From an uncultured Rhodospirillales bacterium (lineage in GTDB: Bacteria > Pseudomonadota > Alphaproteobacteria > CACIAM-22H2): a stretch of DNA of 33,800 bases. The DNA lies in the NCBI GenBank assembly GCA_903860935.1, contig CAIOSQ010000365.1, forward strand, positions 1 through 33,800. The letters run 5' to 3'. Shown here in pieces: positions 11,063 through 13,147 of the stretch. Positions within the stretch are counted from its first letter, which is position 1. Each line of letters starts with the position of its first letter. The notes below the pieces were generated by a model that saw nothing but the letters and a program-made list of their open reading frames with translations, ran no database searches and was not told where the DNA came from. Both the position numbers and the translations under genes were made by a program.

Positions 11063-11070
11063 GCGCGGCT

Positions 11071-11182
11071 TTCCGAGGGGAGCCCCAGGTGGGGCTGAGA
11101 CGTTCGCACGGGGCTGCTTTTGGGTAGCCCGCCGCGCCGACCCTTCGAACCTGATCCGGATCATGCCGGCGAAGGGACGGGA
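11071..11182 (+). ncRNA. TPP (THI-box) riboswitch
   Basis: All conserved aptamer blocks are present in order. P1 is TTCCG (11071-11075) paired with CGGGA (11178-11182). GAGGGGAGCCCC (11075-11086) faces GGGGCTGAGA (11091-11100), including the invariant CTGAGA that binds the pyrimidine. P3a is an extra stem, GGGCT/AGCCC (11111-11130). CCCTTCGAACCTGATCCGG (11141-11159) leads into the CCGGCGAAGGGA block ending near 11177, the pyrophosphate-sensing arm. It lies 73 nt upstream of a periplasmic binding protein gene. When thiamine pyrophosphate is plentiful it should lower that gene's expression. Confidence 0.95.
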
Positions 11183-11220
11183 GGGCGCGCGGAGACCGCG
11201 ACGGTCCTTTGCGCGCCAGA

Positions 11221-11251
11221 GCCTCGCGTCCTGGCCGGAAACGCGAGAGGC
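11221..11251 (+). promoter_or_regulatory. Riboswitch expression platform: helix sequestering the Shine-Dalgarno sequence
   Basis: GCCTC (11221-11225) pairs with GAGGC (11247-11251), and GCGT (11226-11229) pairs with ACGC (11241-11244), with a 2-nt bulge. The GAGAGG ribosome-binding site (11245-11250), 5 nt before the ATG at 11256, is buried in this stem. This suggests translational control by the TPP aptamer. No run of U follows, which argues against an intrinsic-terminator platform. Confidence 0.65.
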
Positions 11252-11255
11252 AAAC

Positions 11256-12275
11256 ATGCGCGCAGTCGCTCTCATCATCGCAATCCTGATGGCCAGCCTG
11301 ACGGGTTTCGCATCGGCGGACGCTCAGACGCGCCTTGTCGTCTACACCACGCTCGAGCAGGAGTTCCTGGATGGCTTCCGCAAGGCGTTCGAGGCCGACA
11401 ACCCCGATATCGGGCTCGATTTCCTGCGCGATTCGACGGGCGTCATCACGGCGCGACTGCAGGCCGAAAAGGCGACCCCGCGCGCCGATGCGATCTGGGG
11501 CCTCGCGGTGACGTCGACGATGGTGCTGGACGCCGAAGGCATCCTGGAGCCCTACCGGCCCGCCGACTTCGCATCTCTGCGCGCGGAGTTCCGCGATCCG
11601 CGTTCGAACCCGACCTGGTTCGGGATGGAGGCATGGTCTGCTGCCGTGTGCTTCAACACGATCGAAGCCACGAAGCTCGGATTGCAGCCGCCGCGACGCT
11701 GGGAGGATTTGACGCGGCCGGAGTTCAAAGGGCGTGTGCTGATGCCGAACCCCGCGTCGTCAGGGACCGGGTTCTTTCATGTCGCCGGCTGGATCCAGAT
11801 GATGGGCGAGGAAAAGGCCTGGGCGTTCATGGACAGGCTCCACGAGAATATCGCCGCTTATGTGCATTCCGGGTCCAAGCCATGCCGTGATGCGGCGACC
11901 GGGGAGTTCCCGGTTGGGATCGCCTACGAACTGCTCGGCGCACAGTTGCGCACGCGTGGCGCGCCGATCGACACGCTGATCATGACCGATGGCGGCGGAT
12001 GGGACATGGATGCCTTCGCGATTATCCGCGGTTCCCGCAACCTCGCCGCCGCGCGACGGCTGGCCGACTGGGCTGCGAGCCGCAAGGCGAACGAGATGTA
12101 TGCCGCCTTCGCGACCCAGGTCGCCTGGCCGGGGATCGAGAACCGTATGCCGAACTATCCCGCTGGTGTCGCCGAATCGCTCATCCGGAATGATTTCGCA
12201 TGGGCGGCCGCCAATCGCGCGCGGATTCTCGGGGAATGGGCCAGGCGCTACGACGTCAAGAGCGCGCCGCGCTGA
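11256..12275 (+). CDS. Periplasmic solute-binding protein under TPP riboswitch control (AfuA/2-AEP-binding-like)
   Basis: 339 residues. The N-terminal signal peptide (MRAVALIIAILMASLTGFASADA, cut probably after ADA) is followed by an extracellular solute-binding domain of the type that includes AfuA/FutA and putative 2-aminoethylphosphonate binders: LVVYTTLEQEF, RADAIWGLAVT, RPEFKGRVLMPNP, GIAYELLGAQL. Such proteins deliver ligand to an ABC permease, but no permease or ATPase gene is next to it. Because a TPP riboswitch precedes it, thiamine, a phosphorylated form or a thiamine precursor is a more likely ligand than phosphonate; this is inference. A 7-bp hairpin after the stop may end the transcript. 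The start is supported by GAGAGG 5 nt upstream. Confidence 0.88.
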   Translation: MRAVALIIAILMASLTGFASADAQTRLVVYTTLEQEFLDGFRKAFEADNPDIGLDFLRDSTGVITARLQAEKATPRADAIWGLAVTSTMVLDAEGILEPYRPADFASLRAEFRDPRSNPTWFGMEAWSAAVCFNTIEATKLGLQPPRRWEDLTRPEFKGRVLMPNPASSGTGFFHVAGWIQMMGEEKAWAFMDRLHENIAAYVHSGSKPCRDAATGEFPVGIAYELLGAQLRTRGAPIDTLIMTDGGGWDMDAFAIIRGSRNLAAARRLADWAASRKANEMYAAFATQVAWPGIENRMPNYPAGVAESLIRNDFAWAAANRARILGEWARRYDVKSAPR

Positions 12276-12282
12276 GAACCAT

Positions 12283-12302
12283 CCGTCGGGCGTGGCCGAC
12301 GG
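12283..12302 (+). terminator. Hairpin after the solute-binding protein gene
   Basis: A perfect stem of CCGTCGG (12283-12289) and CCGACGG (12296-12302) with a 6-nt loop, starting 8 nt after the stop codon. There is no U tract. It may be a terminator or an mRNA-end stabiliser separating this gene from the CoA-transferase-like pair. Confidence 0.4.
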
Positions 12303-12328: not shown

Positions 12329-13147
12329 ATGAGGTTCGTTTCCACGCAAGAACTCGTCGCTGGCCTCGCGCCCGGCGATTTGATCGCCATCCCGCCGGAT
12401 TACTCCGGCGTTTCGATGGCCGCGACCCGCGCGCTGCTGCGCGCGGGCTCCGACGAATTGCGCCTGATCGCCGTGCCGACATCTGGGCTGCAGGCCGAAC
12501 TCCTGATCGGGGTCGGCCGTGTCGCCGAACTCGAGGCGGCTGCGGTATCGCTGGGCGAGGCGGGACCCGCGCCGCGCTTCGCGGATGCGGTACGCAACCG
12601 TCGCATCCGGATGCGCGACACGACCTGTCCGGCCGTGCATGCGGCATTGCAGGCAGCGGAGAAGGGGATCCCGTTCATGCCCCTGCGCGGTCTTCTTGGA
12701 ACCGACATCCTGGCGCATCGTGACGACTGGCGGGTCGTTCCGAACCCCTTCACGAAGGCGGATGATCCGATCGTCCTTCTGCCTGCCATCGCGCCGGACG
12801 TCGCCCTGTTCCATGCCCCCAGGGCCGATCGGGACGGCAATGTCTGGATCGGGCGGCGCCGCGAGCTTGCGACAATGGCGCATGCATCGCGCCGCAGCCT
12901 CGTGACGGTGGAAGAGGTGGTGGAGGGATCGCTGCTGGCGCATGAAGAGAGCGCGGCCGGTGTTCTGCCCGCAATGTATGTCGAGGCGATCGCCGTCGCG
13001 CCGCGCGGCGCCTGGCCGTTGGGATGCCAGGATCTCTACGATGCCGACGATGTCGAACTCGCTCGCTACGCCGCGGCGGCGCGTAGCGCCGACGGGTTCG
13101 CGGCATGGCTCGAGATGTTTCTCGGCCGAACCGAGGTGCTGGCATGA
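12329..13147 (+). CDS. Class I CoA-transferase-fold protein, alpha subunit (IpdA/GctA-like)
   Basis: 272 residues of the family containing glutaconate CoA-transferase A and the mycobacterial ring-opening hydrolase subunit IpdA. Signs are the N-terminal GDLIAIPPDYSGVSMAATRALL, the block LQAAEKGIPFMPLRGLLGTDI, and PDVALFHAPRADRDGNVWIG (typical HxxxxDxxGN). In the stretch that I align with the proposed catalytic Glu region of IpdA, this protein reads DTTCPAV, with C100 near that site. It overlaps the beta subunit gene as ATGA and follows the solute-binding gene by 53 nt. The ATG at 12329 is chosen because the domain starts there. The substrate is unknown. Confidence 0.82.
   Translation: MRFVSTQELVAGLAPGDLIAIPPDYSGVSMAATRALLRAGSDELRLIAVPTSGLQAELLIGVGRVAELEAAAVSLGEAGPAPRFADAVRNRRIRMRDTTCPAVHAALQAAEKGIPFMPLRGLLGTDILAHRDDWRVVPNPFTKADDPIVLLPAIAPDVALFHAPRADRDGNVWIGRRRELATMAHASRRSLVTVEEVVEGSLLAHEESAAGVLPAMYVEAIAVAPRGAWPLGCQDLYDADDVELARYAAAARSADGFAAWLEMFLGRTEVLA

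Follow-up and report, generated by a model that had tools for sequence, protein, structure and literature searches.

A TPP riboswitch precedes an orphan PhnS2/AfuA-like binding protein that very probably belongs to the thiamine regulon in uncultured Alphaproteobacteria

Several described binding proteins bear comparison with the one considered here. ThiB/TbpA, the thiamine-compound capture protein of ThiBPQ, is encoded together with its permease, and transporters regulated by TPP often carry HMP or thiamine. PhnS2 is known from PhnS2-T2-U2 operons and is represented by the NCBIfam model phnS2 (TIGR03261, putative 2-aminoethylphosphonate binding protein). AfuA binds hexose-6-phosphates and P5PA binds pyridoxal phosphate; the residues holding the phosphate are S37, G38, S148-T150 and G185 in AfuA, and T37, S147-T149 and S183 in P5PA (PMC4546632, PMC8427247). 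There is also precedent for binding proteins encoded apart from their permease: Pseudomonas aeruginosa has several binding proteins for DppBCDF, one of them encoded away from the operon (PMC4206461). The Dpp case resembles ours in this separation, but it concerns peptides and involves no riboswitch, and the remote DppA5 gave no complementation under the tested conditions (PMC4206461). In the literature that we found, no TPP-controlled PhnS2-type protein is described; the main text of an RNA-regulon survey of 255 genomes contains neither "afuA" nor "phn" (PMC3766115).

The window, which is an entire contig of 33,800 nucleotides from an uncultured Rhodospirillales bacterium, holds a single complete TPP aptamer (Rfam search, E 4.6e-10), whose score exceeds the Rfam gathering score of 54.3 bits across the full model; its conserved core, CTGAGA ... 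GAACCTGATCCGGATCATGCCGGCGAAGGGA, is intact. This bears out the complete aptamer claimed in an earlier note on this DNA; the location given there was real as well, although its start at 11071 falls 5 nt inside the 11066 boundary. We infer that this copy senses TPP. The ATG at 11256 follows sixty-one bases after the aptamer end, and between the two a hairpin (11221-11251) is predicted to pair the Shine-Dalgarno sequence GAGAGG (mean P(unpaired) of the region 0.31), in keeping with the sequestering helix noted earlier, even though for this single sequence the fold is no better than that of shuffles (z -0.95). The predicted hairpin gains credibility because pairing of the Shine-Dalgarno sequence recurs in relatives: G002, G199 and G294, which have long linkers, carry such a hairpin in the same place but with differing letters, and the Shine-Dalgarno sequence of G001 is mostly paired too. 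Short linkers are found in G004, G066, G109 and G021, where the start lies 4 to 20 nt past the conserved 3' core of the aptamer. As judged from these leaders, both layouts would fit translational control.

Table 1. Features of the riboswitch locus (window coordinates)
Feature	Position	Strand	Evidence
TPP riboswitch aptamer (THI element), complete	11066..11194	+	RF00059 62.1 bits, model positions 1-105 of 105
Predicted expression-platform hairpin pairing the Shine-Dalgarno sequence	11221..11251	+	MFE fold and pairing probabilities
Shine-Dalgarno sequence GAGAGG, 5 nt 5' of ATG	11245..11250	+	sequence; within hairpin 3' arm
Orphan substrate-binding protein, PhnS2/AfuA-like, 339 aa	11256..12275	+	TIGR03261 418.8 bits; AF2 pLDDT 95.2
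Putative signal peptide, residues 1-23, MRAVALIIAILMASLTGFASADA	11256..11324	+	by sequence: AxA-type cleavage motif following a hydrophobic core and an N-terminal Arg
Predicted phosphate site 1: T61-G62	11436..11441	+	aligned to AfuA S37-G38 / P5PA T37 (PMC4546632, PMC8427247)
Predicted phosphate site 2: S169-G170-T171	11760..11768	+	aligned to AfuA S148-G149-T150
Predicted phosphate site 3: S205-G206	11868..11873	+	aligned to AfuA S184-G185
Putative remodelled organic end of pocket: L226-L227	11931..11936	+	aligned to AfuA H205-D206
CoA-transferase subunit A; possibly co-transcribed neighbour, not thought part of the system	12329..13147	+	PF01144 28.1 bits

The reading frame from this ATG to the stop at 12275 encodes, as had been claimed, a single signal-peptide-bearing binding protein; the AxA-type motif that ends the signal peptide is ASADA-Q, and the protein matches SBP_bac_6 of Pfam (63.3 bits). 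It also scores above the curated cut-off of the phnS2 model (392.75 bits), and databases label it a phosphonate binder. Its identity to PhnS2 is about 50%, with identical phosphate-binding positions; unlike PhnS2, however, it has no adjacent permease, ATPase or phosphonate genes, is preceded by a TPP riboswitch and falls in a separate clade. A confident AlphaFold2 model has as its nearest solved structures (TM 0.90-0.91) VcA0625 and AfuA, which bind sugar phosphates, and P5PA, which binds pyridoxal phosphate, and shares its phosphate site with AfuA and P5PA, but identity to these two is only 27-29% and the orphan has no adjoining permease genes. Since the folds closest to it belong to binders of phosphate esters and its phosphate site is preserved, we set aside a role as an iron binder. 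ThiB/TbpA belongs to the same fold class (TM 0.80 to the thiamine-binding protein 2qry), yet identity is 19% and the score against TIGR01254 is 42.6 bits, below the curated cut-off of 93.4.

The neighbouring genes encode an SRAP protein, two CoA-transferase subunits, a CaiB-type CoA transferase and an M24 peptidase. No permease on the contig matches the PhnU2 model, which agrees with the absence of an adjacent permease or ATPase reported earlier. A perfect 7-bp hairpin without a T run lies right past the binding-protein stop (12282-12302) and may separate this gene from the CoA-transferase genes.

Orthologues were sought in the window's own order (one family, 23 genomes) and in 385 alphaproteobacterial genomes. 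In a maximum-likelihood tree of 71 proteins, 16 orphans, including the window protein and its close relatives (56-85% identity), form one clade inside the PhnS2 family (bootstrap 100, SH-aLRT 100). A TPP aptamer was found by Rfam search directly upstream of the orthologues in G001, G002, G004, G021 and G022 of the own family, and in G066 (a locus also seen as L004), G199, G294 and G109; with the window protein, 10 of the 16 members from four alphaproteobacterial families are thus preceded by a riboswitch. Because it stands directly upstream of so many members of a fully supported clade, we consider the riboswitch not to be accidental; conservation over four families with different neighbours leads us to reject a chance occurrence. 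The remaining six genes (in G005, G300, G377, G389 and G221, and the second copy in G199) have no TPP aptamer upstream in a search down to E = 1, which also speaks against degenerate copies. The flanks of all 16 are free of ABC ATPases and permeases of the PhnTU type. Outside the clade, nearly every PhnS2 protein has an ABC partner adjacent, the exceptions being those of Phreatobacter and one paralogue in G022, and no TPP aptamer occurs at the loci scanned outside the clade. The Phreatobacter proteins (L024-L027) are a further PhnS2-like group without ABC partners; the two of these loci that were scanned (L024, L026) carry no riboswitch. Riboswitch-free orthologues in phosphonate operons, the case that the earlier note had named against its own reading, did not materialise: the operon-borne proteins are separate paralogues, one of them in the window's own genome. 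As a side observation, a guanidine-II riboswitch (42.2 bits; L074 10529-10578, G022) precedes a gene of the small multidrug-resistance type at a distance of 7 kb from the orphan.

In 3 of 3 genomes of family f88 the gene that follows nusB-thiL is the orphan, although G389 has a gap of ~0.9 kb between them. The riboswitch of G109 is placed between thiL and the orphan gene, and the identity of thiL (TMP kinase) as its neighbour was confirmed in one f88 genome (G221, 284 bits). This adjacency counts for less because it comes from a single family and because the nusB-thiL cluster is common in alphaproteobacteria.

The thiamine genes of the host point in the same direction. No own-family genome has an intact thiC, with one fragment present in G005. 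The window's genome, an assembly of 468 contigs estimated to be 100% complete, has neither thiE nor thiD above cut-off (84 and 63 bits), where most relatives score 164-196 bits for thiE and about 300 for thiD; thiL is present (287 bits). A host that has thiL but lacks thiC, thiE and thiD must therefore import thiamine, TMP or TPP, as it could not use free precursors. Taken together, the conservation of the riboswitch in four families, the thiL adjacency in one of them and the missing thiC, thiE and thiD make us highly confident that the orphan belongs to the thiamine regulon, as a new member of which it had been proposed.

The earlier note had also suggested looking for further TPP riboswitches in this genome, and there is a second one, upstream of a YkoF-YkoE-YkoD-YkoC importer (L082 5154-9646, G000:C68); a kinase of the APH/thiamine-kinase type is encoded just upstream of that locus. 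Other loci in relatives also carry a TPP riboswitch. At L236 (G009:C45), L238 (G004:C239) and L105-L107 it precedes a LivK-like binding protein, scoring only 69 bits to the LivK model, and a Liv-type permease and ATPase; these genes may form a branched-chain-type importer that belongs to the thiamine regulon in genera g2 and g5. At L111 (G002:C339), L103 (G003:C334) and L113/L237 (G001:C81) it precedes a UgpB-like (glycerol-3-phosphate-type) binding protein; thiM comes next in G002, thiE is close by, as is thiD in G002 and G003, and no permease was seen within the short flanks. The ThiXYZ-like, YkoFEDC and UgpB-like/thiM loci of the own family share their regulation, and presumably a salvage role, with the orphan; they differ in that their binding proteins are unrelated and that the checked ones sit with permease or thi genes.

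The ligand pocket combines a conserved and a changed part. In the alignment the three predicted phosphate sites are invariant in all 16 orphans and all 33 PhnS2 proteins. At the position of AfuA D206, by contrast, 29 of the 33 PhnS2 proteins have Arg while every orphan has Ala, Leu or Ser, and the position of H205 is mostly Leu in orphans as against Tyr, Met or Phe in PhnS2; the ring-binding His205 and Asp206 of AfuA thus correspond to Leu226 and Leu227 in the window protein. Near the pocket, the substitutions P to M, L to F and E to D relative to PhnS2 have become fixed among the orphans. On this comparison the ligand would be phosphate-bearing with a different, probably bulkier, organic part. 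That the orphan binds a thiamine compound we regard as likely, and because the phosphate site is retained we lean, by a smaller measure, towards a phosphorylated one.

As to the permease, a PhnU2-type protein is present in 15 of 15 orphan-bearing genomes (13 over the cut-off, two split across contig ends) and in 3 of the 8 orphan-free genomes of the own family that were tested, counts which ignore phylogeny. This lends circumstantial backing to the earlier suggestion of a permease encoded elsewhere. In the window's genome, contig C392 carries a true PhnS2 with ATPase, permease (810 bits to the PhnU2 model), phosphonoacetate hydrolase (565 bits) and phosphonoacetaldehyde dehydrogenase (818 bits), and no TPP riboswitch at this locus. 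A search for permease and ATPase genes lacking a binding protein, another step proposed earlier, turned up one candidate: an AfuB/AfuC-type ATPase with a two-domain permease on contig C343 (L184 86-2829), the sole AfuB-type two-domain permease in this genome without a binding protein on its contig. We give PhnTU an even chance of being the permease of the orphan.

Other ligands have to be weighed. The orphan might bind unphosphorylated thiamine or a precursor (HMP, HMP-P or thiazole phosphate) within the same regulon; such cargo is frequent among TPP-regulated transporters, and thiD and thiE are present in other genomes of the family, which would be able to use precursors. The ligand of the close fold neighbour P5PA, moreover, is a phosphorylated hydroxymethyl-pyridine that closely resembles HMP-P (PMC8427247). 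The invariant phosphate shell argues against unphosphorylated thiamine, and a pyrimidine or thiazole precursor would be useless in this genome because thiD and thiE are missing, so that we find such ligands rather unlikely. It is more doubtful still that the protein has remained a binder of 2-AEP or another phosphonate or phosphate ester, having recruited its riboswitch through a link to TPP-dependent chemistry. The phnS2 score, the intact phosphate site and the phosphonate permease in all orphan-bearing genomes would agree with this, but a PhnS2 without a riboswitch already stands beside phosphonate enzymes on C392, all orphans have lost the Arg that PhnS2 carries in its pocket, and thiL adjoins the gene in f88. 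The enzymes next to PhnS2 are, moreover, not known to be TPP enzymes.

A thiamine-compound binder could also work with a different permease, such as the AfuB-type one on C343, or act as the partner of a sensor rather than as a transport subunit; a related fold, 6lkg, has been described as belonging to a two-component signalling system. Against the former, a mere 86 nt separate the start of the C343 operon from the contig end, so that its binding-protein gene may simply be cut off, and its permease scores 186 bits to PhnU2 compared with 810 for that of C392; against the latter, we recognised no sensor kinase next to the orphan. We consider this rather unlikely, to the same degree as an unphosphorylated or precursor ligand. 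Even less do we believe that the riboswitch mainly serves the downstream CoA-transferase genes with the binding protein as a passenger. The CoA-transferase pair does follow the orphan in five own-family genomes (that of the window, G002, G004, G021 and G022), but it is not conserved beyond the family and we reject it as the true target: riboswitch-bearing orthologues in f45, f57 and f88 have no CoA transferase beside them, the next gene being convergent or unrelated, and since it is convergent in f45 and f57 the riboswitch there serves the binding protein alone. Two observations weigh against the model that we favor below, namely the six riboswitch-free clade members and the second TPP-controlled importer (YkoFEDC) in the same genome.

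We thus favor a TPP-repressed capture protein, probably for TMP, that borrows a PhnT2/PhnU2-type permease, and put the probability of this model as a whole at roughly 0.55. At high cellular TPP the aptamer would fold round TPP and the Shine-Dalgarno sequence would stay paired, so that little binding protein is made; at low TPP the protein would be produced and exported to the periplasm. Its ligand there would be a thiamine compound, in all likelihood a phosphorylated one such as thiamine monophosphate, bound by the phosphate site inherited from AfuA/PhnS2 ancestors and by the remodelled organic end; the protein would hand this ligand to a permease encoded elsewhere, most likely the phosphonate permease of C392; in the cytoplasm, ThiL would convert TMP to TPP. 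More tentatively, we speculate that low TPP induces an alternative binder which docks on PhnTU and switches the cargo of the phosphonate importer to intact thiamine phosphate, with no need for separate permease genes.

A subfamily that the NCBI equivalog model names a phosphonate binder is thereby assigned to vitamin B1 salvage. The misnaming is likely to be systematic, because each of the 16 clade members hits the model with an E value no worse than 1e-100 and the one in the window exceeds its cut-off; a likely consequence is that phosphonate uptake is over-counted in environmental data. If the permease step holds true, one transporter would serve two nutrients through a riboswitch-controlled swap of its capture protein, in uncultured bacteria that rely on others for their vitamin B1.
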